From NCBI GenBank assembly GCA_020052645.1, contig JAGVOQ010000033.1:1-50314 (forward strand): 50,314 nucleotides of DNA, read 5' to 3'. The DNA is from Candidatus Omnitrophota bacterium (lineage in GTDB: Bacteria > Omnitrophota > Gorgyraeia > Velamenicoccales > Velamenicoccaceae). The translations under genes and the position numbers were made by a program. The notes beneath the pieces were generated by a model. It saw only the letters and a list, made by a program, of their open reading frames with translations, was not told where the DNA came from and ran no database searches. Of this stretch, positions 20,998-49,673 are shown one piece after another. Every line of letters begins with the position of its first letter. The stretch's first letter is position 1.

Positions 20998-21115
20998 ACC
21001 CAGCACTAATTTTTCATAAAAATTAGTGCTGGGTTTAATTCGCGCAAATGACTTATGCTATGAAAAGCGTTCCCTGCCTGCCGGCAGGCAGGCATAAGTC
21101 ATGCGCTCATTAAAG
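20998..21115 (+). promoter_or_regulatory. RNA module W, copy 2 (between atpB and atpE)
   Basis: Helix 1 is a perfect 17-bp inverted repeat, 20998-21014 with 21018-21034 (ACCCAGCACTAATTTTT, loop CAT). The linker is TTAATTC. Helix 2 is GCGC (21042-21045) with GCGC (21103-21106), an unpaired AA (21046-21047), and ATGACTTATG (21048-21057) with CATAAGTCAT (21093-21102). Inside helix 2 is a 10-bp loopless palindrome arm pair, CCTGCCTGCC and GGCAGGCAGG (21073-21092). TCATTAAAG follows at 21107-21115. Same architecture as 11105-11271, with compensatory changes in both helices. Confidence 0.8.
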
Positions 21116-21157
21116 GAAAATAAACTTTACTCCGTATTTTACAATCCCCAAGGGGAT

Positions 21158-21233
21158 GGACCTTACTAATTCCATACAAAGGAAGGGTCCTACCCAGAAA
21201 GGGTGCCCTTTCTTATCCATATAAAGGAAGGGG
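21158..21233 (+). promoter_or_regulatory. RNA modules Y-Z-Y in the atpE leader
   Basis: Y hairpin 21158-21190 has outer stem GGACC/GGTCC and loop TAATTCCATACAAA. Z hairpin 21192-21204 is ACCC-AGAAA-GGGT. A second Y hairpin lies at 21205-21233 (GCCCTT with AAGGAAGGGGC, loop containing TATCCATATAAA). The same Y-Z-Y order occurs at 33784-33865 with covarying stem bases, and Z-Y at 26755-26793. Confidence 0.7.
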
Positions 21234-21254
21234 CTAAATTAGAGAAATTGTTTT

Positions 21255-21364
21255 GCTCCTCATCTTTTCTAGGAATAACATCAATGAGGGAAGATTCGGA
21301 GTTGATTCCTGTAAAGAGACAGGAATCAAGAGTTCACTCGTTCGCCATTGAGGCAATGGCGAAC
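21255..21364 (+). promoter_or_regulatory. RNA module X, copy 1, and expression-platform hairpins before atpE
   Basis: CTCC (21256-21259) pairs with GGAG (21298-21301) and ATC (21262-21264) with GAT (21293-21295), with the module-X marker GATTCGGAGTTGA on the 3' side. TTGATTCCTGT (21302-21312) then pairs with ACAGGAATCAA (21319-21329). GTTCGCCATTG (21340-21350) pairs with CAATGGCGAAC (21354-21364), ending seven bases before the AGGAGG of atpE. The internal hairpin differs from the other X copies, so this is the most divergent clear member. Confidence 0.5.
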
Positions 21365-21381
21365 TCATGAAGGAGGCTCGT

Positions 21382-21612
21382 ATGGATTATAAAGTAGCGT
21401 TGGGATTTGCAATACCTTTAAGCTTGGCGATTGTTGGTTTTGGTTCAGCGATTGCTTTGGGAAGAGCTGTGTCTTCAGCCATGGATGCTACAGGCAGACA
21501 GCCTGAAGCAGCGACCAAGATATTGATCAATATGGCTACAGGCTGCGCGTTTATTGAAGCGTTAACGATCTATGCGCTTGTGTTTGCTTTTTCGTTGGCC
21601 GGCAAGTTTTAA
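21382..21612 (+). CDS. atpE: F1Fo ATP synthase subunit c
   Basis: A 76-residue proteolipid of two helices with the polar loop GRQPEA (38-43) and ion-binding Glu59 in FIEALTIYALV. The ATG at 21382 is chosen because AGGAGG lies just upstream; an ATG at 21367 would add five residues but has no such site. Sodium-type c subunits carry a Gln in helix 1 and Ser/Thr after the Glu. Here the equivalent positions are Leu26 and Ala60, so proton coupling is more likely. It has its own long structured leader. Confidence 0.95.
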   Translation: MDYKVALGFAIPLSLAIVGFGSAIALGRAVSSAMDATGRQPEAATKILINMATGCAFIEALTIYALVFAFSLAGKF

Positions 21613-21627
21613 GGAGCGGCTTAAAAA

Positions 21628-22125
21628 ATGGAACTGCTGAAGCTTTTAACGACAAACGAGATCGTCGCTCAGGTCATTAATTTTCTGATCCTTTTTTTCC
21701 TGTTGCGTATTTTTTTGTGGAAACGCATTTTAGGGATTTTGGATGAGCGGCGTGAAAAAATCGCGCAAGATTTTAAGACGATAGAAGGCACAAAAAAGTC
21801 GGTCGAAGAGCTCAAAAATGATTATGAAAAGAAGATGGGTTCTATTGAAGAGATGGCCAAAACTAAAATGCATGAGGCTGTTTTAGAAGGCGGTAAGATC
21901 GTCAGCGAAATCAAAAAAGAAGCTTACCGGGACGCTGAAAAGATCATTCAATCAGCTCGCGCGGATATCCGTTATGAAATAACAAAAGCCAAAAATGAAC
22001 TTAAAGACAAGGTGGTTGATCTCACTATTCAGGCAACGGAGAGCGTCATTCGGGAAAAGTTAACGGTGGAGAGCGATAAAAAAATCGTTAAAGAATTTTT
22101 AGATCAAATGGAAGAATTATCTTAA
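21628..22125 (+). CDS. atpF: F1Fo ATP synthase subunit b
   Basis: A 165-residue peripheral-stalk subunit. One N-terminal membrane helix (about 10-29, VAQVINFLILFFLLRIFLW) is followed by the conserved KRILGILDERREKI start of a long charged coiled coil. Length and position between atpE and atpH are normal, and only one b gene is present. AAGGAGCGG precedes it by about ten bases. It overlaps atpH by one base. Confidence 0.96.
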   Translation: MELLKLLTTNEIVAQVINFLILFFLLRIFLWKRILGILDERREKIAQDFKTIEGTKKSVEELKNDYEKKMGSIEEMAKTKMHEAVLEGGKIVSEIKKEAYRDAEKIIQSARADIRYEITKAKNELKDKVVDLTIQATESVIREKLTVESDKKIVKEFLDQMEELS

Positions 22126-22661
22126 TGAATATTATTCTTTCTAAAAGATATGCGGAAGCTTTTATCAGTTATGCCAAACCTATTTTAGGTTTGGATGAAA
22201 TTGTCGACGAATTTAAGAATTTAAAATTTGTCCTTGTCCAGAATCCCGAGCTGAAGGCGTTTTTGGAAAATTATGGGATCCTTCATAAAGAAAAATATGA
22301 CACGATCGAGAGTGTCCTAAAAGATTTTTCCCGTGAGTTGAGGGATTTTCTGAAATATCTTGTGCATAAAGACCGCATCAGCCATATCCTTGAGATGTGT
22401 GATTATGTGCGCGTGACCTACGCCCATGGAGAAGCAGTGGATGCTCTTTTAAAAACATCGTATCCTTTAGATTTGGAATTGATACAGGCTATTAAAGACA
22501 GTGCTGAGAGAAAATGCGGGAAGAAACTGAATTTGCATATTCAGTATGATGGTGATCTTTTGGGGGGTGTGCGCTTGACGGTGGGCCATTTGGTTTTTGA
22601 CGGTTCTGTTAAGAGGCGGCTTGAAGAGTTGAGAGAGAAACTAAAGACAGTAAGGATATAA
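22125..22661 (+). CDS. atpH: F1Fo ATP synthase subunit delta
   Basis: A 178-residue delta subunit joining the peripheral stalk to F1. The N-terminus has [12 protein letters not shown], the family hallmark, and the C-terminal part has [27 protein letters not shown], the conserved closing segment. It starts on the last base of the atpF stop and ends four bases before atpA. Confidence 0.96.
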
Positions 22662-22665
22662 TATT

Positions 22666-24192
22666 ATGGATATACGGCCCGAAGAAGTTACGTCTGTAAT
22701 TAAGCAGGAACTGGAAAAGTATAAAGCGCGTCTTAGGATGGAATCCGTAGGGACGGTCATCCAGGTGGGCGACGCTATCGCGCGGGTCTATGGGCTTGAT
22801 AATGTTATGACCGGCGAAATGGTTCAGTTTCAATCCCAGGTGTATGGGATGGTGTTGAATTTGGAGGAGGATAGCGTCGGTGTTGTTATTTTTGGCGCTG
22901 ACAACCCTGAGCAAAATATCAAAGAAGGTGATTCGGTTAAAAGGACAGGAAAGATTGTTCAGATGCCTGTTGGAGAGGTGCTGAAAGGCCGTGTGATTTC
23001 GGCTTTGGGAGCACCCATTGACGGTAAAGGGCCTGTTGTTACCAATAAATTCCGGACCATGGAATTTGACGCTCCCACTGTTATTGATCGTCAGCCTGTA
23101 AAAGAATCTTTAGAGACAGGGATCAAGGGGATCGATGCCATGATTCCTATTGGCCGTGGTCAGCGCGAATTGATCATTGGAGACCGGCAGACCGGAAAAA
23201 CCGCTTTGGTGCTTGATGCTATTATTAATCAGAAAGGCAAAGATGTTTATTGCGTCTATGTAGCCATTGGACAAAAAGTCGCCAGTATCGTAGCTGTGGC
23301 TGAAATTTTGGAAAAATACGGCGCCATGGAATATACAACGATTGTGAGCGCTTCGTCTCGTGCGTCAGCGTCTCAGCAGTATCTGGCTCCATACGCGGGA
23401 TGCGCCATTGGCGAAGAATTCATGTATTCGGGTAAAGATGTTCTTGTTGTGTATGATGATTTGTCCCATCATGCTCAGGCGTATCGGCAGCTTTCGCTTC
23501 TCTTGAGGCGGCCGCCAGGACGCGAGGCTTACCCTGGAGATATATTTTATCTGCATTCAAGGCTCCTGGAACGAGCGGCGAAATTAAGCGATAAACTCGG
23601 TGGAGGATCACTCACGGCTATTCCTATTGTTGAAACTCAGGCGGGTGATATTACCAGTTATATTCCTACCAACGTGATCTCTATTACCGACGGTCAAATA
23701 TATTTAGAAAATGATCTTTTTTATTCCGGCGTACGGCCTGCGATCAACGTTGGTTTGTCAGTTTCTCGTGTGGGCGGTAAGGCTCAGGCAAAGGCCATGC
23801 GGCAGGTGGCTGGAAAATTACGCCTGGATTTGGCTCAGTACAGGGAGCTTTTGACATTTTCAAGTTTTGGCGCAGAAGTTGATAAAACGACTCAGGCTCA
23901 ATTGAATCGTGGTGAACGGATGGTTGAGATATTAAAGCAGGAGCAATACAAACCATTGTCGCTCGCGCGACAGGTGATGATCATTTACACAGGCATAAAA
24001 GGATTTTTAGACGATGTGTCTTCTGATTTGATCAAAAAGTTTGAAATAGAATTTTATTTATTCATTGAAAAGAAATATCCCGAACTTGAGAGCGGCATAC
24101 AAACTAAGAAAATTTTGGACGATGATTTAGCGAAACAGTTAGATGAGGCGATCCGATTGTTTAAGCTTGAATTTTTAAAAAATAAATCATAG
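22666..24192 (+). CDS. atpA: F1Fo ATP synthase subunit alpha
   Basis: A 508-residue non-catalytic nucleotide-binding subunit of F1. The Walker A is GDRQTGKT at 172-179. ALVVYDD-type Walker B (here [16 protein letters not shown]) and the [15 protein letters not shown] segment with the arginine finger region are intact. Length is normal. It is preceded by atpH (four bases) and followed by atpG (three bases). Confidence 0.98.
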
Positions 24193-24195
24193 ATT

Positions 24196-26455
<2,260 letters not shown>

Positions 26456-26464
26456 GTCTAAACA

Positions 26465-26734
26465 ATGGCAAAAGAATTTCATTTAACCGTTCTATCCCCG
26501 ACAAAAAGTCTTTATAATGGCAAGGTTGTTTCATTGGTCGCGCCTGCGGCTTTGGGGTATTTGGGCATTTTAGCGGATCACGCGCCTTTGATCGCCGGTT
26601 TAAAAAAAGGGAAGATCATGATTAAAGAATCTTCAGGTGGCGATGTTTTGCTTGAAACTCAAACGCGAGGTTTTTTAGAAGTTAAAAATAATAATGTGAC
26701 GATTATTTTAGATCGTCCTAGTGGCGTATGTTGA
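26465..26734 (+). CDS. atpC: F1Fo ATP synthase subunit epsilon, short form
   Basis: An 89-residue epsilon subunit with the N-terminal beta-sandwich only (LTVLSPTKSLYNGKVVSLVAPAALGYLGILADHAPL). Typical bacterial epsilon is about 130-140 residues and has two C-terminal helices that can insert into F1 and block ATP hydrolysis. Those helices are absent here, and the gene ends after the sandwich (IILDRPSGVC). Loss of this brake would permit ATP-driven pumping; this is an inference. It is the last gene of the operon. Confidence 0.95.
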   Translation: MAKEFHLTVLSPTKSLYNGKVVSLVAPAALGYLGILADHAPLIAGLKKGKIMIKESSGGDVLLETQTRGFLEVKNNNVTIILDRPSGVC

Positions 26735-26754
26735 AAAAAAGAACTCCTGGTTTG

Positions 26755-26793
26755 ACCCAGAAAGGGTAGTCCTGCCCAATTCCACATTAGGGT
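26755..26793 (+). promoter_or_regulatory. RNA modules Z-Y before exbB
   Basis: Z hairpin 26756-26768 is ACCC-AGAAA-GGGT. A Y-like hairpin follows at 26769-26793 (CCTGCCC with GGGTAGG, loop AATTCCACATTA). Both lie between atpC and the module-X copy upstream of exbB. ACTCCTGGTTTGA just upstream (26743-26755) resembles the start of module X at 49435, but its partner strand is not evident. Confidence 0.5.
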
Positions 26794-26829
26794 AGGGGGA
26801 TAAGCCTGTGGTTTGTTAAGGAAAAAATG

Positions 26830-26996
26830 TCCCTTGTCTATGCACTCTAAAATTTCTTCCCCAGCGCATTCGGGGTAAGAAATTTTTAGTCCATAAAGGA
26901 CAGGCCTTCCTGGTTCCGCATAAAGGAAGGGCCTAGAGTAGACTTCGGGATTAATTTTGCAAAGAAGAAATACCTCGAAAATTCAAAATTAAGGAG
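26830..26996 (+). promoter_or_regulatory. RNA module X, copy 2, upstream of exbB-exbD-hppA
   Basis: P1 is TCCC (26830-26833) with GGGA (26947-26950). The inner helix is GTCTA (26836-26840) with TAGAC (26939-26943). A long AT-rich hairpin spans 26847-26889. A Y hairpin with stem AGGCCTTCC/GGAAGGGCCT and one extra G is inserted at 26891-26936. The 3' hairpin is TTAATTTTG (26951-26959) with CAAAATTAA (26984-26992), directly followed by the GGAG ribosome-binding site of exbB (start 27003). Opening or closing this last hairpin could control translation. Confidence 0.7.
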
Positions 26997-27002
26997 CTAA
27001 CA

Positions 27003-27620
27003 ATGTCTTTATGGCAATTAGTGAAGGTCGGCGGCTTTACGATGGTGATTTTAGTATTGTTTTCAATCCTTTCTTTAGCGATTATTATTGAAAGGCTTCT
27101 GTATTATCGTCGCAGGTCCCTGATCCGCAGAAAAAATTTTATGAGCCGTATCGCCGTTGAATTAAATAAAAAAAATATTTCCGAGGCTGTTAAGCTATGC
27201 AAAAACACAGATACGCCTTTTTCACGCGTTGTTCAGGCCGGCCTGAATCTCTATAGCCACGATGAAGTCGTGATATCGAATGCCATGGAGAGGGAAGTCA
27301 CTATTGAAACAACGCGCTTGGAGCATTTGACCAGCATTGTGGGGACCATTGGGAGTACCGCAGTTTATATTGGACTTTTTGGCACTGTCCTTGGTATAAT
27401 AAGGGCTTTTCATGACATCTCTCGAAGTGGTTCAGGGGGAGTTGACATCGTTATCAACGGAATTTCCGAAGCGCTTGTGTGTACGGCCGCTGGATTATGC
27501 GTAGCGGTTCCTGCAGTTATCGCTTATAATTATTTCGTTAAAAAAGTCGATATCTTTATTACGGATATGGAATTATGTGCTTCTGAAGTTATGGATCTTT
27601 TGAATATCAGGCAGAGATGA
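27003..27620 (+). CDS. exbB: ExbB/TolQ/MotA family proton channel protein
   Basis: A 205-residue inner-membrane protein with an N-terminal helix, a cytosolic region (about 35-105) and two more helices near 115-140 and 155-180. TIGSTAVYIGLFGTVLGIIRAF and ALVCTAAGLCVAVPAVIAYNYF are the diagnostic segments of ExbB/TolQ, with the pore Thr/Ala-rich pattern. It pairs with ExbD, encoded next with a four-base overlap. Together they use the proton gradient to drive TonB-type or related work. No tonB gene follows; hppA does. Confidence 0.93.
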   Translation: MSLWQLVKVGGFTMVILVLFSILSLAIIIERLLYYRRRSLIRRKNFMSRIAVELNKKNISEAVKLCKNTDTPFSRVVQAGLNLYSHDEVVISNAMEREVTIETTRLEHLTSIVGTIGSTAVYIGLFGTVLGIIRAFHDISRSGSGGVDIVINGISEALVCTAAGLCVAVPAVIAYNYFVKKVDIFITDMELCASEVMDLLNIRQR

Positions 27621-28030
27621 AACGTCGTTCGCGAAAGCAAAACCTGGTTGCTGAGATCAACATAACACCGTTCACGGATGTTATATTGGTGCTCTTGGTT
27701 ATTTTTATGATCACGACGCCTTTGATTTCGCAGTCCAATATCAAGGTTGATCTGCCGAAAGCAAAGAGTGGGCAACCTGTTGAAGCTGGACAGAGTTCGG
27801 GCGCTGAGATCATTGTGACGCGCGAAGGCCCGGTTTATTTAGACGGCAAGGTCGTTACGCGCAAAGAGATGGGGAAGGAATTAGAGGACTTAAAAAAAGA
27901 AAATCACGATTTAAGCGTTGTCGTGCGTTCGGATAAAACAGTAAGGTTTCAGGATATTGTTAACGTATTAGATATGTTAACGGAACTGGGTATAACAAAA
28001 CTTAAAATTGCAGCAACAGCACAGGAGTGA
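27617..28030 (+). CDS. exbD: ExbD/TolR family protein
   Basis: A 137-residue single-pass protein. AEINITPFTDVILVLLVIFMITTPL carries the essential Asp at the start of the membrane helix. The periplasmic part (about 45-137) contains the typical YLDGKVVTRKEMGKEL and VVVRSDKTVRFQDIVNVLDML segments. It overlaps exbB by four bases and precedes hppA by 12 bases, so all three are likely co-transcribed. Confidence 0.94.
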   Translation: MKRRSRKQNLVAEINITPFTDVILVLLVIFMITTPLISQSNIKVDLPKAKSGQPVEAGQSSGAEIIVTREGPVYLDGKVVTRKEMGKELEDLKKENHDLSVVVRSDKTVRFQDIVNVLDMLTELGITKLKIAATAQE

Positions 28031-28042
28031 GAAAGGAGTATC

Positions 28043-30322: not shown

Positions 30323-30337
30323 GAAGAAATTAAATCA

Positions 30338-33675: not shown

Positions 33676-33682
33676 AAGGAAG

Positions 33683-33900
33683 GATCCCTTATCTTTAGCA
33701 CTTGAAAATATTCTTGCCAGGGCAATTGGGTGAGAATATTTTCTACGCAGATTTCGGGATTAATTTTGTAATCCAAAAGGGATAGTCCTTCCTGATTCCA
33801 TGCAAAGGAAGGGACTAACACAGAAAGTGTAGACCTTCCTAATTCCTCATAGAGGAAGGGGCTTAGGAAAAGAAACTATTGTATAGGCAAAAGATAAGGA
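33683..33900 (+). promoter_or_regulatory. RNA module X, copy 3, with Y-Z-Y inserted
   Basis: P1 is ATCCC (33684-33688) with GGGAT (33756-33760). The inner helix is ATC (33691-33693) with GAT (33750-33752), next to TTTAGC. An 11-bp perfect hairpin is GAAAATATTCT (33704-33714) with AGAATATTTTC (33733-33743). The 3' platform begins TTAATTTTG and resumes as CAAAAGATAAGGA at 33889-33901 after an inserted Y-Z-Y block (33784-33865; Y stems AGTCC/GGACT, Z hairpin ACAC-AGAAA-GTGT). No coding start is close behind it; module X copy 4 begins ten bases later. Confidence 0.65.
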
Positions 33901-33910
33901 AGTAGTGGAA

Positions 33911-34033
33911 TAACTCCTGGCCTAAACGCTTGTAAATTTTCTCGCCAGCAAAATTGGGCAGAAAATTTACTAAGCAGGCTGCGGAGTTAACTTTGGTGGG
34001 AAAAGAAACCATTGTATAGGCAAAGTTAAGGAG
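33911..34033 (+). promoter_or_regulatory. RNA module X, copy 4, at the ribosome-binding site of the third antiporter gene
   Basis: P1 is TAACTCC (33911-33917) with GGAGTTA (33983-33989). The inner helix is GGCC (33919-33922) with GGCT (33977-33980). A 10-bp hairpin is GTAAATTTTC (33932-33941) with GAAAATTTAC (33961-33970). The 3' hairpin is TTAACTTT (33987-33994) with AAAGTTAA (34022-34029), which overlaps the P1 strand and runs into AAGGAG (34028-34033), eight bases before the ATG. P1 and the 3' hairpin share TTA, so they compete. This is the clearest switch geometry in the window. Confidence 0.75.
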
Positions 34034-34041
34034 CAAAATTA

Positions 34042-35487
34042 ATGTATTCGTGGTTGGTGCTGTTGCCTTTTTTAGGCGTGATCTTTTTGAATTTACCTTC
34101 CAAAACAGTCAGGTATAAGCTGGCTTTTTGGTTGTCTTTATTTATTGTTGTTGTTCAACTATTTTTTGTTATTGTTCCGATGTCTGTTGCATGGAGCCGC
34201 ATCCTGGATTCTTTAGGGACATTTTTAAAGATGAATTTTTCCGTTGATAGCTTAAGCCAGGTTCTTTTGTTTTGTATCGGTCTTGTTGCGCTTGTTACGC
34301 TTTTTGTGCAAAGAGAGATGGCTCAGGATGAAAAACAAATGTTTAATTTTGCCAATGTGCTGTTGTTGGTCTTGGCTGGGATGAATGGCATTGTTTTGGT
34401 GAGGGATATTTTTTCTCTCTATGTATTTTTGGAAATTACGGCGATTGGTTCTTTTATCTTGATATCTCTTGATGAGAGTTTTAGTGCTTTTGAAGGAGCG
34501 TTTAAATATATCATTCTTTCTATCGTGGCGACGGTTCTTATGTTACTCGCGATAGGGTTATTTGTACTCGTGGCTGGGAGCACTTCGTTTGAGGCCATAG
34601 GCCGCGCTTTTGCAGACTATCCTAATGTTTTTTTGATTCGTTTGGCTATGGGGCTTTTTCTTTCAGGATGTTTCATCAAGGCGGGTCTCATGCCGTTTCA
34701 TGGTTGGCTGCCGGATGCCTATGCATCAGCACCAGCCTCGGTCTCAATTTTATTGGCAGGCATTGTTACCAAGGTCGTTGGCGTCTATACCTTAATGAGA
34801 GTGGTGGTGTCTATCTTTGGTTTTGATCCGACGTTGCGTACGATTTTGTTCCTTGTGGGTATTGTTTCAATTGTTTTTGGTGCTTTAGCTGCGTTGGGGC
34901 AAGGTGATTTTAAAAGAATGCTGGCTTATTCAAGCATCAGCCAGGTTGGATATATTATTTTAGGATTAGGAAGTTTTACTTTGTTAGGGCTGGCTGGGGC
35001 GGTTTTCCATTTGTTTAACCATGCTATATTTAAATCTCTTTTGTTTGTGAATTCCGCGGCTGTTGAATCCAGGACCGGCACGCGTCATATGGATAGTCTT
35101 TCAGGTTTATCTCAAAGAATGCCTGTAACGGGTGTGACGTCAATTTTAGCGAGTTTGTCTGCGGCAGGCGTTCCTCCGTTGGCAGGTTTCTGGAGTAAGC
35201 TTTTGATTATTATGGCTCTTTGGTTTTCCGGATTTATTTGGGTGGCTGTAATTGCTGTTTTGGCGAGCGTCTTGACACTGGCATATTTCTTGAAGTTTCA
35301 GCGGAAGGTCTTTTTTGGCACGATTGCAGCTGATTTTAACAATATCAAGGAAGCGGGTTTTGGTCTTATGGTGTCCTCGGTGATTTTGGCGGCCATTATC
35401 ATTGGAGTCGGCGTTCTTTTCCCGTTTATTTTCAGCAATTTTATCGTATTTATAAGTCCATTGATTGGAGGCACCGTTGGTACTTGA
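34042..35487 (+). CDS. MrpD/NuoN/NuoM-like antiporter subunit 3
   Basis: A 481-residue antiporter-family subunit. YVFLEITAIGSFILISLDE carries the membrane Glu. LMPFHGWLPDAYASAPASVS and GIVTKVVGVYTLMRV carry the Lys region, and FKRMLAYSSISQVGYIILGLG is the second Lys region. It is the third such subunit in the cluster, resembling the three pumping subunits of complex I (NuoL, M, N). AAGGAG precedes the ATG within the module-X platform. It overlaps the next gene by 11 bases. Confidence 0.92.
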   Translation: MYSWLVLLPFLGVIFLNLPSKTVRYKLAFWLSLFIVVVQLFFVIVPMSVAWSRILDSLGTFLKMNFSVDSLSQVLLFCIGLVALVTLFVQREMAQDEKQMFNFANVLLLVLAGMNGIVLVRDIFSLYVFLEITAIGSFILISLDESFSAFEGAFKYIILSIVATVLMLLAIGLFVLVAGSTSFEAIGRAFADYPNVFLIRLAMGLFLSGCFIKAGLMPFHGWLPDAYASAPASVSILLAGIVTKVVGVYTLMRVVVSIFGFDPTLRTILFLVGIVSIVFGALAALGQGDFKRMLAYSSISQVGYIILGLGSFTLLGLAGAVFHLFNHAIFKSLLFVNSAAVESRTGTRHMDSLSGLSQRMPVTGVTSILASLSAAGVPPLAGFWSKLLIIMALWFSGFIWVAVIAVLASVLTLAYFLKFQRKVFFGTIAADFNNIKEAGFGLMVSSVILAAIIIGVGVLFPFIFSNFIVFISPLIGGTVGT

Positions 35488-40592: not shown

Positions 40593-40664
40593 TCCTCCTT
40601 TAGCAGAAAATGCACAACACCATTCATCTTAAGGGCTTTAGCCCTAAAGGATTTCTGCGGAGGA
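40593..40664 (+). promoter_or_regulatory. RNA module X-like, copy 5, leader of the K+ transporter gene
   Basis: TCCTCC (40593-40598) pairs with GGAGGA (40659-40664), and GCAGAAA (40603-40609) pairs with TTTCTGC (40652-40658), around TTTAGC. The 3' side reads TGCGGAGGATTAACG, close to TGCGGAGTTAAC and TGCGGGATTAAC of copies 4 and 6. It lacks the long hairpin and the 3' RBS hairpin, so it is a divergent or reduced copy. The transporter starts 20 bases later. Confidence 0.45.
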
Positions 40665-42720: not shown

Positions 42721-42727
42721 ATAATTC

Positions 42728-42755: not shown

Positions 42756-42788
42756 CACAGTTGTAGTAAATAAAGATTAGAAGTCTTG

Positions 42789-42831
42789 AACCGCAAGGGT
42801 GAAAAAGATAACTAACCTTGCGGTTTTTTTT
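42789..42831 (+). terminator. Strong intrinsic terminator or attenuator
   Basis: AACCGCAAGG (42789-42798) pairs perfectly with CCTTGCGGTT (42816-42825) over a 17-base loop, followed by TTTTTT. It ends the K+ transporter transcript or attenuates the promoter just upstream. Confidence 0.85.
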
Positions 42832-42847
42832 ATCAGCGTCATATTTA

Positions 42848-42904
42848 CCCCGTTAGGGAATTCAGATGTCTAGCAGGTAAAGGTGATAAAGATTTCTAAC
42901 GGGG
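42848..42904. repeat. CCCCGTTAGAGA-type repeat, copy 4 (short, variant)
   Basis: CCCCGTTAGGGA (42848-42859) and TTTCTAACGGGG (42893-42904) bound a 57-base element, half the length of the three copies near the secretin. Each arm has diverged slightly. It lies in the leader of the first cold-shock gene, 38 bases before the start codon. Confidence 0.7.
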
Positions 42905-42941
42905 TTTACTATAATTTTGAGGAAAAGGAGGTATTCAAGCA

Positions 42942-43142
42942 ATGGCAAAAGGAGTTGTTAAGTGGTTTAATAACCAAAAAGGTTATGGTTTTATCACTCC
43001 GGAGAATGGTAAGGATGTGTTTGTGCATCATACCGCTATTCAGGGTGAAGGTTACAAGTCTTTGGACGAAGGACAAGCGGTTGAGTTCGAAATCGAAAAA
43101 GGTCCTAAAGGCGAACAGGCTACCAACGTAGTTAAGTTGTAA
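42942..43142 (+). CDS. cspA: CspA family cold-shock protein 1
   Basis: A 66-residue nucleic-acid-binding protein with a single cold-shock fold. RNP1 is KGYGFIT and RNP2 is VFVHHTAI, both intact. It acts as an RNA chaperone. AAAAGGAGG precedes the ATG. A long leader (from about 42762) with a terminator and a repeat hairpin suggests control at the RNA level, as is known for cspA mRNAs. Confidence 0.97.
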
Positions 43143-43163
43143 CCTGAAGGTGGGATAATCATG

Positions 43164-43200
43164 GGCCCGGTCTCTTTGAAGAGCCGGGCCTTTTTATTTT
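43164..43200 (+). terminator. Intrinsic terminator after cold-shock gene 1
   Basis: GGCCCGG (43164-43170) with CCGGGCC (43184-43190) and inner CTCTT/AAGAG form a 12-bp stem with one bulged T, then TTTTTATTTTTG. A classic terminator, ending transcription before the second cold-shock gene. Confidence 0.9.
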
Positions 43201-43220
43201 TGTAAACCCGGAGAGCCGAT

Positions 43221-43430
43221 ATGCATACAGGTAAAATAAAAAAGTTAGTGGGCGAAAGAGGTTTTGGTTTTATCAGCGATAATGACGGCCGAGAGGTATT
43301 TTTTCATCAAAATAATATTGTTGACAGTAAATTTTCCGATTTGAAAGAAGATCAGGAAGTTGAATTTGATGTTGAAGCTTCAGAAAAAGGGCCTCGCGCG
43401 GTCAACGTTCGTGTTATCCAAAAGGGATAG
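43221..43430 (+). CDS. CspA family cold-shock protein 2
   Basis: A 69-residue cold-shock-domain protein, more divergent than its neighbour. RNP1 is RGFGFIS and RNP2 is VFFHQNNI. GGAGAG precedes the ATG. The tail (EKGPRAVNVRVIQKG) is standard. It is followed by the radical-SAM gene after two bases, so these two are likely co-transcribed. Confidence 0.95.
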   Translation: MHTGKIKKLVGERGFGFISDNDGREVFFHQNNIVDSKFSDLKEDQEVEFDVEASEKGPRAVNVRVIQKG

Positions 43431-43432
43431 GG

Positions 43433-44755
43433 ATGAAAATAGTTTTGATTGAACCTCGCGCGTGTGAGGCGAATGTCTATAGTAAAATATCCATGCCGCT
43501 GTTGGGCCCGGTCTACTTAGGGACTATTTTAAAAAATAGAGGGCATGAGGTTGAGATTTATCATGAAAACATTCAGCCTCCTGATTATGCGAATCTTAAA
43601 GCTGATCTTGTGGGTATTTCTATCCTCACTTCGACCGCGACCCGCGGTTATGAAATTGCCAAAAAATTCAATAAAGAAAAAGTGATTATGGGCGGCGTCC
43701 ATGCGAGTCTTTTGCCGAATGAGGCATTAGAATTTGCCCGGCAAGTTGTTGTGGGCGAGGCTGAAGAAGTTATTGCAGATATAGCTGAGGGCAGAAACCT
43801 TGAACCAATCGTTTACGGTAAGCCTATCCAAGATTTGGATGCGCTTCCCGTTCCTGATTTTTCTTTAATTAAAGGATATCGTAAGAATCCCTTGATCATG
43901 CCCGTATCAACATCTCGTGGCTGTCCTTTTGATTGCAGCTTTTGTTCTGTCACAAAGATGTTCGGCCGAAAATACCGTTTTCGCAGTCCTTTAAATATTG
44001 TTGCGGAATTGAAATCAAGGACCGCGGGGTCATTCTTTTTCTGTGACGATAATTTTACGGCGCACCCGTTGCGGTCACGGCTTTTATTAGACCTTATGCT
44101 GAAAAATAAAATAAACAAGTGGTCTTGTCAGGTGCGTTGTGATGTGGCTAAGGATAAGGATCTCTTGAGTCTTATGAGTAAGGCCGGATGCCGCTTGGTT
44201 TGTATTGGTTTTGAATCTGTGAACCCGAAGACGCTTAAGGCCTACGACAAGAAACAGACGCTGGAAGATATTGTTTCCGCGATTCGGTCGTTCCACAAAA
44301 AAAGAATAAAAATTCATGGCATGTTTGTTTTAGGCGGAGAGGATGATAATAAAACGACTATTTGGGAAACCCTGAAATTTGTCATTAAACAAAGAATAGA
44401 TACGATGCAATTGTCTATTCTGACGCCTTTTCCCGGGACAAAGGTTTATGAAATGCTGGAAGCTCAGAAGAGAATATTTACCAGGGATTGGAGACTTTAT
44501 GATGGCCAGCATATCGTTTTTTTCCCAAAGTTGTTAACAGCAAAAGAACTACAAATGAATGTTATTAAGGCCTACGAAAAGTTTTATTCACTCACGAAGT
44601 CGTTTTCGTTAGTTTTTAAGTTACGCTTGAGAAACGCTATGTTTCGTTTTATGGGGCACGCGATAGTCCGGGAGTGGAACCGGCGTAATGTAAAGATGCC
44701 TTGGTTGTTGCAAAACGCCAGTCTAGTCGCCAATAGGAAAGAAGGCTTAGTATGA
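43433..44755 (+). CDS. B12-binding radical SAM protein
   Basis: A 440-residue protein with an N-terminal cobalamin-binding fold (about 1-120, LIEPRACEANVYSKISMPLL and VGISILTSTATRG) and a radical-SAM barrel. The cluster ligands are Cys164, Cys168 and Cys171 (RGCPFDCSFC). The C-terminal part has hydrophobic and basic patches that may sit at the membrane. Members of this broad family carry out methylations, ring closures and lipid or cofactor modifications; the substrate cannot be told. It overlaps a 53-residue Cys-rich gene by four bases. Confidence 0.9.
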   Translation: MKIVLIEPRACEANVYSKISMPLLGPVYLGTILKNRGHEVEIYHENIQPPDYANLKADLVGISILTSTATRGYEIAKKFNKEKVIMGGVHASLLPNEALEFARQVVVGEAEEVIADIAEGRNLEPIVYGKPIQDLDALPVPDFSLIKGYRKNPLIMPVSTSRGCPFDCSFCSVTKMFGRKYRFRSPLNIVAELKSRTAGSFFFCDDNFTAHPLRSRLLLDLMLKNKINKWSCQVRCDVAKDKDLLSLMSKAGCRLVCIGFESVNPKTLKAYDKKQTLEDIVSAIRSFHKKRIKIHGMFVLGGEDDNKTTIWETLKFVIKQRIDTMQLSILTPFPGTKVYEMLEAQKRIFTRDWRLYDGQHIVFFPKLLTAKELQMNVIKAYEKFYSLTKSFSLVFKLRLRNAMFRFMGHAIVREWNRRNVKMPWLLQNASLVANRKEGLV

Positions 44756-44913
44756 AGAAGATCAAAGTTTCTCACAAAGGAAGGATCTGCAAGCATCCTG
44801 CCTGTAAGATATTCTTAAGTATTTACAATCATGAGTGCTATTGTTACCTGCACCAGGATAAATTAATAATTCAGGATAGCATTCGAGGGGCCGCGCATTT
44901 GGCGAAAGTTTGA
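44752..44913 (+). CDS. Small Cys/His-rich protein, zinc-finger-like
   Basis: A 53-residue protein that starts as ATGA inside the radical-SAM stop codon, so it is translationally coupled. Cysteines at 13, 18, 29 and 31 and histidines at 15, 27 and 34 (RICKHPACK, HECYCYLHQDK) suggest a metal-binding knuckle of the form C-x4-C-x10-C-x-C-x2-H. The rest is basic and short. I do not recognise a named family; small zinc-ribbon-like proteins of this type are common in uncultured phyla. Possible roles are nucleic-acid binding or assisting the radical-SAM enzyme. Confidence 0.65.
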   Translation: MKKIKVSHKGRICKHPACKIFLSIYNHECYCYLHQDKLIIQDSIRGAAHLAKV

Positions 44914-44968
44914 CAAGGTTGCGTGATTGACAGTGTTTTTTTAGCCGTTTTTTAGAAGACGAATTTTC

Positions 44969-44996
44969 TTGCCAATTTCAAAATTTCTAATATAAT
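44969..44996 (+). promoter_or_regulatory. Promoter upstream of the TPR protein gene
   Basis: TTGCCA (44969-44974) and a perfect TATAAT (44991-44996), spacing 16. A further TTGACA at 44927-44932 lacks a partner. The transcript would have a leader of about 100 nt before the gene at 45107. Confidence 0.65.
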
Positions 44997-45106
44997 TAGA
45001 ACTTAGTAAATCGCTTGGATCTTTCTTTCAAGAGATTTTAAAAAAGCTCATCTAGGTTGAGTTTTTTAAAACAATATCAACAGAAAGTTTGTGGTATAAA
45101 AATTCT

Positions 45107-46006
45107 ATGAAAACAAAAAATTTTATATGGTGCATGGTTTTTATCGCAAGTTTTATTTTTTTCATTGCTCCTTTTTGTTCGGCTGAATCTATTTTGCTTA
45201 AAAATGGGCAAAAAGTTGAAGGGTTACTTTGGGAAAAATCGGATAAATACGTTAAGCTTGTGATCGATGGTGTTTTGACTACTTTTTTCAGTGATGAAAT
45301 TGATCCCAGCTATTTTGCCAAACAAGAAGCGCCCGCTTTTTCAAAGAATCAGACCTTTTCAACAAATCAGACGGTTTCATCCGGTAAGGCGCCTTTGACA
45401 AAACCGGCAGTGGAATCGGCGGCCAAGGAAGAGAAAATGGCCCCTGGTAAAAAATCCATGATTCTTTGTAAACAAGGCGCCGAATTAGGGGCTCAAGGAA
45501 AATTTAAAGAAGCAGAGGTGCTTTTTAAAGAGGCTATGGCTTTAGCAAGGATCGCCCCGCAGGGATTTGATTCTTTTGCCGTAGGGGGCTTAAGGACATG
45601 CTCAGATGTGAGTTCTGGCGTTATTTCAGATGAAGCTGCGCGTTCTATCGCTCAAGCAGCGGTTTTACTGACCGCTAAACAAGTGGAACAATCCTTGAAA
45701 CTTCTTGAGAAAGTCGCAAAAGATTATCCTGATTATGCGCCTATATGGCATGATCTTGGGCTGAATTATTTGGCAGTGGGGCAGGTCGAGAAGTCTTTAT
45801 CAAGCCTTGAAAAGAGCCTTCGATTGGAATCGGATAATCCGGATACTCTTTTTGCTCTTGGGGCCGCCCAGATCGCCTTAAGTCAGTTTGTTGAAGCGAA
45901 AGCGAATTTAGAAAAAGCCAAAGCCTTGTATTTAGAGCAGGGGCGCAAACCTAATTCTCGCTATATCGATGCGTGGATGAAAAAAATGGCGGAAAAAGCT
46001 CTTTAA
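45107..46006 (+). CDS. Exported TPR-repeat protein
   Basis: A 299-residue protein with an N-terminal signal peptide (MKTKNFIWCMVFIASFIFFI and on, cleavage probably after CSA near 26). A short beta-rich piece follows (ILLKNGQKVEGLLWEKSDKY), as in SH3-like or DUF-type export domains. TPR-type helical repeats lie at about 115-165 and 195-290 (YAPIWHDLGLNYLAVGQVEKSL, TLFALGAAQIALSQFVEAKANL). It likely acts as a scaffold in the periplasm. The ATG at 45107 is preferred as it begins the signal peptide; an upstream TTG at 45089 adds six residues. No good ribosome-binding site is seen. Confidence 0.85.
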   Translation: MKTKNFIWCMVFIASFIFFIAPFCSAESILLKNGQKVEGLLWEKSDKYVKLVIDGVLTTFFSDEIDPSYFAKQEAPAFSKNQTFSTNQTVSSGKAPLTKPAVESAAKEEKMAPGKKSMILCKQGAELGAQGKFKEAEVLFKEAMALARIAPQGFDSFAVGGLRTCSDVSSGVISDEAARSIAQAAVLLTAKQVEQSLKLLEKVAKDYPDYAPIWHDLGLNYLAVGQVEKSLSSLEKSLRLESDNPDTLFALGAAQIALSQFVEAKANLEKAKALYLEQGRKPNSRYIDAWMKKMAEKAL

Positions 46007-46070
46007 AAAAAGTATCTTTTCTTTGATTGTTAAAATTTTTTAATCCTTCAAGCAGATCTTTTAAAGCGCA

Positions 46071-46769
46071 ATGAGTCGAATTGTAAGCCTGATCAGGGAA
46101 AGAATAGTCCGGGAGTTCGACCCGAATTATTCAGATTATGTTTTTGACGGTAAAGAGAAGCGCTATCGCCCGGCGCGTTTTTTTTTAGGGCTTTTCTCAA
46201 AAAAAACACTTGATAAGGAATTCAAGGAAATTTTTGTAAAACAAAAAGAAGGAACGGAATTATTAGATGTGGGGGGAGGGACAGGTTTATTGTCCGGAGT
46301 TTTATTAAAGTATTTTTCGCGAGTTTACGCGATTGAAGTTTCAATAAGAATGCTTTTAGAATCTCATCCGCGGCTTTCTTTAGACCCAAACTATTTTCGA
46401 ATCAACGCGGATATTTTTAAATCTCCTTTTAAAGAAAACAAAACATTTGATGCTATTTTTTGTTCGGATGTTATTCATCATACAGGCAGGCATCCGGAAT
46501 TATTGAATATTTTGAAAAATCTGCTTAAGGACTCAGGGACGCTTGTCATTGTGGATTATCTGCCTGAAAGTCTTAAGACGAAACGGGTTCAATTGTTTGA
46601 AGAACTCTTTATCGAAGATTTGAAGCTTATTGCTCCTGAGGTGCTTGAAACTTATTTTTCAAAAGATGAGTTTTCAACAAGGTATCATCCTATAAGCCGT
46701 TTTGAATATATTTTTATCGCCCAGAAAAAACAAGCACCGATATGTGAGGCGAAGGCCCATTTATCGTAG
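46071..46769 (+). CDS. Class I SAM-dependent methyltransferase
   Basis: A 232-residue methyltransferase. Motif I is LLDVGGGTGLLSG near 65-77, then YAIEVSIRM, and motif IV is FDAIFCSDVIHHTGR. The substrate is unknown. It lies directly before the methanofuran-type genes and its frame ends 45 bases before mfnB. Small-molecule or lipid methylation is most likely from the Methyltransf_11-type fold. Confidence 0.85.
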   Translation: MSRIVSLIRERIVREFDPNYSDYVFDGKEKRYRPARFFLGLFSKKTLDKEFKEIFVKQKEGTELLDVGGGTGLLSGVLLKYFSRVYAIEVSIRMLLESHPRLSLDPNYFRINADIFKSPFKENKTFDAIFCSDVIHHTGRHPELLNILKNLLKDSGTLVIVDYLPESLKTKRVQLFEELFIEDLKLIAPEVLETYFSKDEFSTRYHPISRFEYIFIAQKKQAPICEAKAHLS

Positions 46770-46814
46770 TCCTTGTGAGCAGAGCGAACAAGGGAAAAAT
46801 AAGGAGTTTTGTTC

Positions 46815-47528
46815 ATGAAATTATTGGTGAGCGCGATTGATTGTGGCGAAGCCAGGGCCTGTATAGCCGGCGGTGCGGATATTGTTGATGTAAAAAATCC
46901 TAAGGAAGGCTCTTTGGGGGGACATTCTCCTGAAGTTATAAAGAAGATTCGAAAAATTGTCCCTAAGAGCTTGATCCTTAGCGCTACTGTTGGAGATGTG
47001 CCTAATAAACCCGGCCTTGTCGCCCAAGCGGCCCTGGGTCTTGCTGTTTCCGGTGTAGATTATGTTAAGATCGGCTTGTGTGATCATTTTACCGTCCAAG
47101 AAGCCATTTATCTTGTGCGCCTGTTGGTTCAAGCGATTAAGCCAGTTAATAAAAATATTAAGGTCGCTGTCTGTGGATATGCGGATGCCGCTCTCAAGAG
47201 TTATATCTTACCGAAACATATCCCTCGTATTGTGAAAGAAGCCGGGGCTCAAGTGGCCATGATTGATACATTGTCTAAGGGCGACGGAAAGGGCCTGTTT
47301 TCTTTTCTTTCCGAGGGTGAACTTTTAAGTTTTTCACGTCAGTCTCGGCATTTTGGCCTCCAAGTGGCTTTGGCAGGGAGCCTTAATGAGGAAGATGTTA
47401 TAAGGATAAGGGATAAAAAACTTTGCGATTTGATCGGCGTGAGAACTTTAGCTTGCCGCGGAGGAAAAAGAAGCTCTACGATTTTAGCTCCCCGGGTCAA
47501 AGAAATCAAAAAACTTCTCTCTCAATAA
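46815..47528 (+). CDS. mfnB: (5-formylfuran-3-yl)methyl phosphate synthase, MfnB
   Basis: A 237-residue enzyme of the MfnB (DUF556/UPF0264) family. It condenses two glyceraldehyde-3-phosphates into the furan ring precursor of methanofuran. The active-site stretch VDVKNPKEGSLGG carries Lys27, and VDYVKIGL carries Lys85, both known in MJ1099. GDVPNKPG and IDTLSKGDGKGLF are further conserved segments. I chose the ATG at 46815, nine bases after AAGGAG; the TTG at 46809 is less likely. It is followed by the kinase after three bases. Confidence 0.93.
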   Translation: MKLLVSAIDCGEARACIAGGADIVDVKNPKEGSLGGHSPEVIKKIRKIVPKSLILSATVGDVPNKPGLVAQAALGLAVSGVDYVKIGLCDHFTVQEAIYLVRLLVQAIKPVNKNIKVAVCGYADAALKSYILPKHIPRIVKEAGAQVAMIDTLSKGDGKGLFSFLSEGELLSFSRQSRHFGLQVALAGSLNEEDVIRIRDKKLCDLIGVRTLACRGGKRSSTILAPRVKEIKKLLSQ

Positions 47529-47531
47529 ACG

Positions 47532-48203
47532 ATGTCCACCCTGATTAAAATAGGGGGAAGCCTAACCCCAAATGCTGCCTTAGAGATATTTCATCTTTTA
47601 AAAAAATTCAAAACAAAAGAAAAGATTTTCTTTTTTCCTGGTGGAGGTCTTTTTGCGGATTTGATTCGTACATACAGGAAAGAGGCCGCGCTCAGAGATT
47701 TTACAACACACAGGATGGCTCTTGCGGCGCTTGAGCAGAATGCTTTTCTCTTAAGCGATATCTGTCAATGCCGGTGCCTGACGCGTTTATCGCAAATTAA
47801 AAAAAATAAAGTTTCGCCTGTTGTGATAGCGCCTTACCAACTATTGACTCAGAAGTGGCCTTTTAGCGGTTATAATCTTAATATCGACGTGTTTTCATCG
47901 GACTCATCTGCTCTTTATTTGGCGCATCTTTTGAAAGCAAGATGTATCATCGCAACAGATGTAGACGGGGTTTGTTTGAAAGATCCTAAGACTTCTAAGA
48001 AAAACTTTAAGCTTTTGCCAACGCTTAGCGCGCAGGATTTAAAAAAGATAAAGCGAGGAGGGCCATTGGATGAAACAGTGGCTCGTCTCATGATTAAATA
48101 CAAGTTAAACATCTGGGTTGTGAATGGTAAATACCCTCAAAGGATTCTTGAAATAATCCGTTATAACTCTGTTTCAAAAGGGACTTTTGTGCGATACGCA
48201 TAG
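47532..48203 (+). CDS. mfnE: Amino-acid-kinase-family protein, MfnE-like
   Basis: A 223-residue kinase of the aspartate/uridylate kinase fold. The N-terminus LIKIGGSL and FFFPGGGLFADLIR form the phosphate-binding region, and CIIATDVDGV closes the nucleotide site. Its place right after mfnB points to MfnE, the kinase that activates the aminomethylfuran phosphate in methanofuran synthesis. Identity rests on fold plus context, since this family is broad. Confidence 0.8.
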   Translation: MSTLIKIGGSLTPNAALEIFHLLKKFKTKEKIFFFPGGGLFADLIRTYRKEAALRDFTTHRMALAALEQNAFLLSDICQCRCLTRLSQIKKNKVSPVVIAPYQLLTQKWPFSGYNLNIDVFSSDSSALYLAHLLKARCIIATDVDGVCLKDPKTSKKNFKLLPTLSAQDLKKIKRGGPLDETVARLMIKYKLNIWVVNGKYPQRILEIIRYNSVSKGTFVRYA

Positions 48204-48230
48204 ATCAGGCCTAAGAGGAGAAAAATTATT

Positions 48231-49259
48231 ATGAAAATATTTTTATATGCATTTGAGTTTTTTATGGCCAAACGGTTGCATATCGGCCTTTTGGCTTTTA
48301 TCATCCCTGGTTTTTTTAGAAGCATGAAGCAGTTTAGCGTTGATATTTCTCCTTTAGCTCCTGTTATTTCTTTTTTAATTGTTTGGGCCGCTTACTTGGA
48401 AAATCTTACCACCGATAAAAAAGAAGACAGTTTGGGGGCCGTGCCTCATGGTGTTTCTTTAGCTTTGGAATCCAGGCTTTACCCGATAGAGAAGTTTTAT
48501 CCCTTTATATATCTTTTGGCTCTTATTTTTGCCTGGTCGGAAAGCATGAAATGTTTTCTCTATACGGTATTAGCTATTATTGTTTTTTCAAGTTATGTCC
48601 AGCCTATATTCTATTCCAAAGAGAAAAAGAGGCGTTTTCGATTAAAAGAGATCTATGTTGTTAAAAATTTGATTCCTCCCATGGGTTGGGTTTTATCCGT
48701 AGGGGTGATCCCATTTGTTACGACGCATAGCGTTTGGATTCCTGAGTATAATTTTGGTTTGATTGGCGCGCTTATCTGGTCTTTCAGGGAAGAAATTAAA
48801 TACGATATACCTGATGCTGAAGGCGATAAAAAAGCAGGGATTAAGACGTTCCCGAATGTGTTGGGTGAGAAAAGAACAAAACTGATTCTGACGTTCATTA
48901 ATTTTACGTTACAGGTTTTATTTTTTACCTGTTTATTTTTATTAAAAAGAAATAATCGCACATTGCAACTTGATGCGGCGTTTTATTACATGTATCCGTT
49001 CTTAGCGTCGTTTTTCTACGATTATCAATTTTCTAATCTCTTGTTTGAAAAGAGGAAAAAAGAATATTGCAATATCGGTGTTTTATGGTGGGACATCCTT
49101 TTGATTTTGTTTTTGGGGATTCCGTGGCCTGTCAATATTGTGATTTTTCTTTTCTTAAGGTTTTCAGGCGGCTTGTTGGCCACATCTACTTCTGCTGTAG
49201 ACGCGTTTTTGGATGTTTTGAAATCCGCAGAAGACAAATATTTTAGAGTTAAGGCGTAA
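48231..49259 (+). CDS. UbiA-family prenyltransferase
   Basis: A 342-residue membrane protein. The two Asp-rich Mg2+/prenyl-diphosphate motifs are intact: NLTTDKKED (N-x3-D-x3-D) early and DAEGDKKAG (D-x3-D-x3-G) in the middle. UbiA enzymes attach isoprenoid chains to aromatic or sugar acceptors. The acceptor here is unknown. GGAG before the ATG is clear, and the gene follows the MfnE-like kinase by 27 bases, so it may belong to the same operon. A strong terminator ends it. Confidence 0.88.
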   Translation: MKIFLYAFEFFMAKRLHIGLLAFIIPGFFRSMKQFSVDISPLAPVISFLIVWAAYLENLTTDKKEDSLGAVPHGVSLALESRLYPIEKFYPFIYLLALIFAWSESMKCFLYTVLAIIVFSSYVQPIFYSKEKKRRFRLKEIYVVKNLIPPMGWVLSVGVIPFVTTHSVWIPEYNFGLIGALIWSFREEIKYDIPDAEGDKKAGIKTFPNVLGEKRTKLILTFINFTLQVLFFTCLFLLKRNNRTLQLDAAFYYMYPFLASFFYDYQFSNLLFEKRKKEYCNIGVLWWDILLILFLGIPWPVNIVIFLFLRFSGGLLATSTSAVDAFLDVLKSAEDKYFRVKA

Positions 49260-49277
49260 TTTTTTTAAAAGAAATCT

Positions 49278-49315
49278 AACCCCTTGAAGCGTTGGCGCGT
49301 TTTAAGGGGTTTTTG
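49278..49315 (+). terminator. Intrinsic terminator after the UbiA gene
   Basis: AACCCCTT (49278-49285) pairs with AAGGGGTT (49304-49311), with an inner GCG-TTGG-CGC hairpin, then TTTTGTTT. It ends the methanofuran-type operon. Confidence 0.85.
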
Positions 49316-49364
49316 TTTAATCGAAGCGAAGAAGTTTCTTGAAGCGAGCGTAAGGGGTGTTTGA

Positions 49365-49416
49365 ATGCCCGCTATTCAAGCATCAGCGGGCATCCGCTGA
49401 AGTTCTAGTGGCGGAT
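49365..49416. other. Two adjoining hairpins before module X copy 6
   Basis: ATGCCCGCT (49365-49373) pairs perfectly with AGCGGGCAT (49385-49393). ATCCGC (49392-49397) pairs with GCGGAT (49411-49416). No gene is associated. They could be the front part of the leader that continues with module X at 49433. Confidence 0.5.
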
Positions 49417-49432
49417 GGTTGAATAGGATATG

Positions 49433-49554
49433 ATCCCTGGTTTAAGCGTTTGTAAATATCTTGCCCAGGGATGCCGGGCAAGATATTTACTTCGCAATCT
49501 GCGGGATTAACTTTAGTGGGAAAAGATACCATTATCTTAAGCAAAGTTAAGGAG
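49433..49554 (+). promoter_or_regulatory. RNA module X, copy 6 (without an adjacent gene)
   Basis: P1 is ATCCC (49433-49437) with GGGAT (49503-49507). The inner helix is GGTT with AATC, the covarying partner of GGCC/GGCT in copy 4. A long hairpin is GTAAATATCTTGCCC (49452-49466) with GGGCAAGATATTTAC (49476-49490). The 3' hairpin is TTAACTTT (49507-49514) with AAAGTTAA (49543-49550), directly followed by GGAG (49551-49554). No plus-strand gene begins after that GGAG. Confidence 0.7.
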
Positions 49555-49559
49555 CTCAG

Positions 49560-49673
49560 ACCCCGCCAAAGAGCGGTGAGGATTTCGTGCAGCAAGCACG
49601 CACTTGCCAATCCTTTATGGCAAGGTGCAGAGCAGCAGGCGATGTACTTGCCTCTCAATAAAAGGCAAGGTAC
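49560..49673 (+). other. Series of four hairpins after module X copy 6
   Basis: In order: CCGC/GCGG (49563-49576), CGTGC/GCACG (49586-49600), CTTGCCA/TGGCAAG (49603-49624) and GTACTTGCCT with AGGCAAGGTAC (49644-49673). The last two have one extra G on the 3' strand, the hallmark of module Y. They look like structural RNA, not coding sequence. From 49674 to 49696 there is only TTAAGGAGCTCAA, a second RBS-like stretch without a gene. Confidence 0.5.

Follow-up and report, generated by a model that had tools for sequence, protein, structure and literature searches.

In the excerpted text of the report that describes them, the mycobacterial interspersed repetitive units (MIRU) appear to be mobile, insert at start codons and work through an open reading frame (ORF) whose coupling to the following gene is at −4 nt (PMC12548453), and the portion consulted of an account of pneumococcal BOX presents dispersed, modular, transcribed and folded repeats that are reported to alter the expression of their neighbours (PMC3049150). 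The stretch analysed here, hereafter the window, comprises the 50,314 nucleotides at positions 1 to 50,314 of contig JAGVOQ010000033.1 from a Candidatus Omnitrophota bacterium (assembly GCA_020052645.1), in which the first-pass annotation had drawn six sites of one RNA architecture, all but one before ion and energy genes, and had proposed a candidate riboswitch class, perhaps of the Na+ (DUF1646) or the ydaO/c-di-AMP class. Following these sites through the genome and its relatives, we find what looks like a repeated Omnitrophota RNA element at gene starts, real and apparently undescribed, rather than an ion-sensing switch. It is a recurrent, covarying structured RNA that extends up to the ribosome-binding site and that, judged by covariance models, alignments and an Rfam search, lies outside every Rfam family.

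Covariance model R1 was built from nine clean copies (alignment A1), R2 from 86 copies, and R3 from a sequence-only alignment of 44 cores. Pairing was assessed in A4, an alignment fitted to the model and hence to the structure, and in A7, a sequence-only alignment of the core. Across A4, 27 of the 32 pairs change on both sides and 92.9% of the pair cells are standard, with none of 500 shuffles reaching any of five measures. In A7, both sides change in 16 of the 20 core pairs and 94.3% are paired; none of 500 shuffles reached four of the measures and one reached the fifth, while slid controls dropped to 33-53% paired. The overall shape is a single rod, helices P1 to P4, which contains the conserved core and is directly followed by P5, a hairpin that varies and whose 3' strand runs into GGAGG; the tip helix P6 is weakly paired (68% in A4). 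The layout first drawn by eye, with a P1 closed by CYCC/GGRG, a covarying inner helix, an AT-rich hairpin and a 3' hairpin ending at the ribosome-binding site, proved correct. Within the core, the same 2x3 internal loop (C-UY-G / C-UKC-G) occurs twice, flanking P2, an AARC bulge and the two-base-pair P3. Four nucleotides (U9, A15, C18 and U118) never vary among 26 copies taken from the class's other families, and C111 and C120 are kept in 25 of these; the figures somewhat overstate conservation because these copies were found with the model. P5 varies freely between families, from short GC hairpins to long stems, with its pairing kept and its end mostly lying beside the ribosome-binding site. 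In the core, GU outnumber AC mismatches (28 versus 14 in A7, and 42 versus 22 in P1-P4 of A4), as expected for an RNA of this strand. The leaders thus contain the conserved, covarying, aptamer-like core that would be looked for in a riboswitch.

The window sites, all on the + strand, were scored with R1 and with R3 (core only), filters off. Four of the six sites (33910, 49430, 33681 and 26826) stood as copies, the one at 21252-21333 is doubtful, and the one at 40593-40664 fell away. The best full-length copy, 33910-34034, is the second of a tandem pair and scores 115.9 bits with R1 and 76.4 bits with the R3 core (E 1.9e-21); its P1 pairs 33913-33917 with 33983-33987, its P5 (the 3' hairpin) pairs 33988-33995 with 34021-34028, and behind P5 follow the ribosome-binding site GGAGC at 34030-34034 and a start codon at 34042. 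Another full-length copy, 49430-49555 (R1 102.3 bits; R3 core 66.3 bits, E 2.8e-18), has no evident gene behind it, and no ORF of 40 amino acids with a ribosome-binding site was found within 400 nt. Both belong to all three seed alignments, and their scores are partly by construction, while the sites 33681-33760 and 26826-26997 are in no model. At 33681-33760 lies the core (P1-P4) of the first tandem copy before the antiporter gene (R3 core 48.8 bits, E 9e-13). Here a second hairpin element, Y (33765-33870), breaks up the 3' hairpin, which seems to resume at about 33866-33905. The copy before the ExbB/TolQ gene (26826-26997; start codon 27003) reached 58.1 bits in the genome search (E 4.8e-9) and 26.7 bits for the core (E 7.8e-6), with an insert between P4 and P3' that resembles element Y in the repeat search. 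Before the ATP synthase c-subunit gene (21367), the doubtful site 21252-21333, perhaps a degenerate copy (R1 E 0.071; R3 E 1.0), has P1 and the first internal loop and lacks the AARC bulge and the second loop. The bulged hairpin before the permease gene (40593-40664) carries a similar 3' marker and is a non-member by these tests, in which neither R1 (E<=10) nor R3 (E<=2) finds a match there on the + strand. Fold z values are −4.2 for 33910-34034, −4.8 for 49430-49555 and −4.4 for 21252-21333, ranging from −3.4 to −4.8 over the first five sites (first 150 nt only for 26826), and −2.8 for 40593. Elsewhere in the window, a perfect hairpin at 20997-21035 precedes a P5-type hairpin at 21036-21110 (TTAATTCGCGCA...GCGCTCATTAAAGG), which is like those behind the core in other families and here stands without a recognisable core.

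None of the 4227 families of Rfam 15 matched the sites at gathering score, and a search at E<=10 over 20900-50314 again gave nothing at the sites, its five matches falling elsewhere; single copies compared with Rfam returned just chance-level microRNA, ALIL and rne5 matches. The two classes suggested by the first-pass annotation were not borne out, as neither model matches at the sites. For the Na+ riboswitch (RF03071), six matches at E<=10 occur in the own genome, the best at 19.4 bits against a cut-off of 40.5 bits and none on the window's contig, and 12 of 14 control genomes also give matches, one of them over the cut-off; for ydaO/c-di-AMP, the sites gave no match. Separately, the Rfam cspA thermoregulator matches 42771-43195 at 78.6 (gathering score 78), overlapping the ORF at 42883-43131.

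Placement relative to start codons was analysed for 226 distinct copies in four genomes. A same-strand start codon lies within 15 nt of the 3' end in 151 of them, and an opposite-strand start codon lies at the 5' end in 10. By genome, the near-start copies number 42 of 77, 51 of 79, 36 of 41 and 22 of 29, the loci of G003 and G005 being best matches only, which flatters their fractions. The near-start count may be low, given that, 6 nt behind the infC copy in the window's own genome (G000), there is an ATT with a frame that, by eye, resembles an IF-3 start; infC can start with ATT. For 138 copies chosen because a ribosome-binding site is followed by a start codon at 2-12 nt, the spacing between the two is 4-6 nt in 103. 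G006, a complete genome, has 82 copies at E<=1; of the 70 that score better, 66 keep one strand per chromosome half, with the half boundary chosen by the analyst, a bias that resembles that of leading-strand genes. Upstream, a same-strand ORF (60 codons) ends within 400 nt of 58 of 66 first copies in G000 and 61 of 66 in G006, and within 30 nt of 14 and 22, respectively. Adjacent copies form 12 same-strand pairs and no opposite-strand pair. A leader defined by the transcription start was rejected because no aligned motif precedes P1 and some copies lie directly behind a stop codon; in the 55 nt before P1 of 168 non-tandem copies, no fixed-distance motif was found and no column exceeded 0.2 bits.

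Counted with R1 at E<=1, copies number 80 in G000, 71 in G003, 98 in G005, 82 in G006, 67 in G004, 18 in G007 and 7 in G002, which is of the same genus as G005; a small incomplete genome (G001) has none at this threshold. A degenerate pattern for the 3' marker (<=3 mismatches) matched 10 times in the own genome and up to 11 times in same-family genomes, the reversed control pattern giving one match in 99 genomes; of its six matches outside the core family, in G002, G008, G046, G057 and G061, two, both in G061, are the element. With an exact core pattern, the GTDB species collection yielded 64 stretches, 61 titled Omnitrophota, Omnitrophica or Velamenicoccus and the remaining three (L288, L293 and L313) titled just 'bacterium' or 'uncultured bacterium', and viral contigs yielded no match. 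R2 matches 73 of 384 genomes of the class and R3 85 of 384 of the phylum, one of them outside the class; as these scans scored 9 or 12 candidates per genome, copy numbers from them are lower bounds and absences are not firm. Occurrence within Omnitrophota is patchy. One locus (L180 in G329, assigned to another family) has a core that looks identical to L031/L208 of G003, possibly through transfer or contamination.

The gene names given in the window hold at Pfam level for ATP synthase c, ExbB, ExbD, the membrane pyrophosphatase, three proton-antiporter proteins and a hydrogenase large-subunit-type protein, while the protein called KimA-like is an AA_permease_2 match, which neither proves nor excludes KimA. 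The ion and energy regulon proposed from these neighbours did not survive the genome-wide view. In the own genome, 42 genes have a start adjoining a copy, and 40 were scanned for families and grouped by function by the analyst. Just two of the 40 encode ion-coupled membrane proteins, the antiporter and ExbB/TolQ, both from the window; the apparent ion regulon arose because the view was confined to the window. Six belong to redox and energy metabolism (flavodoxin, PorA, a sulfhydrogenase beta-like protein, rubredoxin, desulfoferrodoxin and a PorD/ferredoxin-like protein), and 13 are housekeeping genes for ribosomal, translation, transcription, chaperone, secretion or DNA-binding proteins. The targets include ribosomal proteins L7/L12, L21, L35, S16 and L19, as well as RpoA, SerS, GroEL, DnaK, a ClpB-type protein, SecD, SSB, a Dps-like protein and type II secretion/pilus proteins; a hibernation-factor-like target falls just below its family cut-off, and seven of the 40 have no family at E<=1e-6. 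In distant low-copy genomes, family search named IF-3 (infC), RpoA, DnaK, IHF/HU, L21, P-II and PurH among the targets. Of 30 loci viewed, four near contig ends (L359, L364, L376 and L378) were left out, and six of 36 matches had no locus. The low-copy targets are mixed too, and a single ancestral target gene was rejected on that ground. The downstream set is therefore mixed, where a riboswitch would be expected to have a coherent one.

For genes that bear the element, 19 orthologues were identified within 307 kb of G002; the element stands at four of them and is absent from 15. Six of these 15 also have a recognisably conserved upstream gene, and there the distance from stop to start codon measures, with the element and without it, 169/27, 297/23, 124/37, 279/−4, 108/17 and 190/72 nt, gain and loss not being told apart at these junctions. 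Copies at orthologous genes rank at a mean percentile of 0.57 among cross-genome pairs (17 of 22 pairs usable), with one pair, before a gene reading as ribosomal protein S11, at 1.00; tandem neighbours rank at a mean of 0.60 among within-genome pairs (nine pairs). Gene names such as infC in G000, and the S11 name, were assigned by eye. Missing at orthologues and little more alike there than random pairs, the element thus behaves like a spreading repeat. Mean identity within genomes is above that across genomes in G003 (0.713) and G005 (0.691) and not clearly so in G000 (0.653) and G006 (0.629). By contrast with pure turnover, G000 (53 genes) and G006 (60) share eight target genes versus about 1.9 expected, with 1700 genes assumed for each, and turnover and a preference for certain genes both seem to be at work. 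Many dispersed copies with empty orthologous sites are what an interspersed repeat would give. Absence of a preferred orientation, which is typical of interspersed repeats without being a strict definition, was not found (151 sense versus 10 antisense of 226), and a search by eye alone for terminal inverted repeats or target-site duplication gave no clear case. The first-pass annotation had named lack of covariation and mobile behaviour unlinked to gene function as outcomes that would speak against it; covariation is present, and spreading-repeat behaviour with weak ties to gene identity is what we observed.

The element Y that interrupts the 33681 copy is dispersed as well. Its two units at 33765-33870 (+ strand) are among 49 own-genome matches and consist of a short hairpin, CCCAGAAAGGG, with TAGWCCTTCCT...AGGAAGGGWCTAA behind it; a further Y lies at 21147-21235, and a similar stretch from the repeat search, outside the 49, at about 26890-26940. 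For 24 of the 49 matches, one of the 71 listed copies of the main element is no more than 250 nt away and always on the same strand, where about 1.4 would be expected.

The reading that we lean towards, at somewhat better than even confidence, is that the element serves as a structured leader, dispersed and acting in cis, through which the translation or stability of the gene behind it is tuned. Such a leader would act in cis, as RNA and after transcription: by folding on itself it would isolate the initiation site from upstream sequence and keep that site open, and it may also make the transcript more stable downstream. A trans-acting factor, in the simplest case an RNA-binding protein that forms dimers, would probably read the conserved core with its twofold 2x3 loop and could adjust many housekeeping genes together, and the target set would turn over as copies come and go like an interspersed repeat. 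From ribosome-binding site to start codon, the mean unpaired probability is 0.522 in native and 0.398 in shuffled leaders, and the native site is the more open one in 79 of the 90 copies that were sampled out of 138. A switch via the P1 5' strand CTCCTT, complementary to AAGGAG, was rejected because the pairing shows no co-evolution with the ribosome-binding site: helix length is 5.341 for own and 5.348 for permuted combinations, 188 of 300 permutations being at least as high.

Several observations weigh against the leader reading. Any self-folding leader would leave a downstream site open, which makes the openness weak evidence for insulation, and that a protein binds at the twofold loop is guesswork based on its symmetry. 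Over the whole of A4, AC exceed GU mismatches (90 versus 70), which results from the weakly paired P6 (AC 63 versus GU 25); those in P5 are AC 5 versus GU 3. A third of the placement set, 75 of 226 copies, adjoin no detected start codon; for 21 of these no start codon was found up to 420 nt away, and for the other 54, some of them standing upstream in a tandem, it lies at 16-420 nt. In other families, five copies (L357, L360, L381, L190 and L373) stand tail to tail with a tRNA gene, encoded on the opposite strand at most about 100 nt away, and no start codon was found for them. A motif at varying distance, and hence a promoter, is compatible with the fixed-distance test before P1. Finally, where a start codon follows directly behind P5, the ribosome-binding site would sit inside the hairpin, and P5 would hinder translation; 25 copies fit a loose pattern for such a site, and in cases noted by eye a site-like stretch seems to lie in a bulge of P5 (L163:1569-1704, L178:1598-1716, L141:2773-2899, L030:1435-1554 and L145:2761-2945).

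Confidence in these explanations overlaps, since a processing role and a leader role are compatible. That the element is an intercistronic rod that is cut or that protects transcript ends, setting unequal mRNA levels within an operon, is a possibility that we hold tentatively: copies lie between stop and start codons inside operons, and operon repeats tied to RNase E or RNase III cleavage are a precedent in the consulted portion of the BOX account (PMC3049150), but processing or decay alone explains neither the conserved core sequence nor the tight start-codon spacing. Less probable, and in our view unlikely, is a selfish interspersed repeat of the REP, BOX or MITE kind, with hairpins that serve mobilisation, placement that reflects tolerated insertion and covariation that belongs to the mobile form. 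It would account for the 67-98 copies in five family genomes and for 98 (G005) against 7 (G002) in one genus, for the 15 of 19 empty G002 orthologues and the 0.57 mean percentile at orthologous genes, and for 12 same-strand against 0 opposite adjacent pairs with Y nested within. It accords poorly, however, with an orientation of 151 against 10 at a fixed spacing to the start codon, with eight shared genes in G000 and G006 where about 1.9 are expected, with the return of rpoA, dnaK, L21 and infC (infC in G000 by eye) as targets in distant families, and with a similarity among copies that, in G000 and G006, is not clearly higher within the genome than between genomes. Least probable of all, and to us improbable, is a ligand-binding riboswitch for an ion, second messenger or growth metabolite with a very large regulon, in which binding to P1-P4 would control access to the ribosome-binding site. 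Large riboswitch regulons exist (the c-di-GMP classes), and the core, conserved, with covarying helices and with invariant nucleotides in its loops, lies immediately ahead of the ribosome-binding site and occurs in tandem copies, as such a switch might show; yet the targets have no evident common pathway, the pairing of P1 with the ribosome-binding site does not co-evolve, the copies read by eye have no U-run terminator (no terminator scan was made), the turnover at orthologous genes is unlike a metabolite switch, and no Rfam class fits.

A bolder form of the leader reading, which we put forward as speculation with the odds against it, is a portable translation-initiation leader: a self-copying RNA cassette that settles at operon junctions, nearly always in sense and immediately before the ribosome-binding site, and that would bring each gene under one post-transcriptional control through the twofold loop. 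If this were true, the phylum would rewire a housekeeping regulon by moving a 5' leader, not promoters; if the element is functional, it would amount to a genome-wide, movable layer of post-transcriptional control in a large, mostly uncultured phylum. Candidatus Velamenicoccus archaeovorus appears to belong to the same family, and its complete genome, with 82 copies at E<=1, and a published metatranscriptome (mentioned in PMC13153191) make the idea testable on existing data. To our knowledge, structured leaders are either specific switches for few genes or loosely placed repeats, and the present element joins an aptamer-like conserved core and a repeat-like copy number to a fixed place before the start codons of essential genes.

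Term searches of the literature (Omnitrophota with riboswitch, Omnitrophica with interspersed repeat, and looser forms), a scope that leaves most subscription journals outside, found no description of the element among the papers listed; at the level of term matches, none of six RNA terms is present in Seymour 2023 (PMC10066038), and neither Omnitrophota nor Velamenicoccus is named in a 50-genome RNA survey (PMC11109978). Like the Na+ riboswitch (RF03071, DUF1646) and ydaO, the element is a structured cis RNA before genes, but no covariance model of either class matches at the sites, and the gene contexts here are general. By copy number and folding, and as far as the consulted portion of its account goes, BOX is nearest; the likeness is one of description rather than of sequence or fold comparison, BOX belongs to unrelated bacteria, and no fixed spacing to a ribosome-binding site is described there. 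By its placement at start codons, MIRU, in the excerpted text of its report, is the nearest known system; MIRU, however, works through a coupled ORF, whereas the Omnitrophota element is an RNA with a covarying fold that lies directly against the ribosome-binding site.

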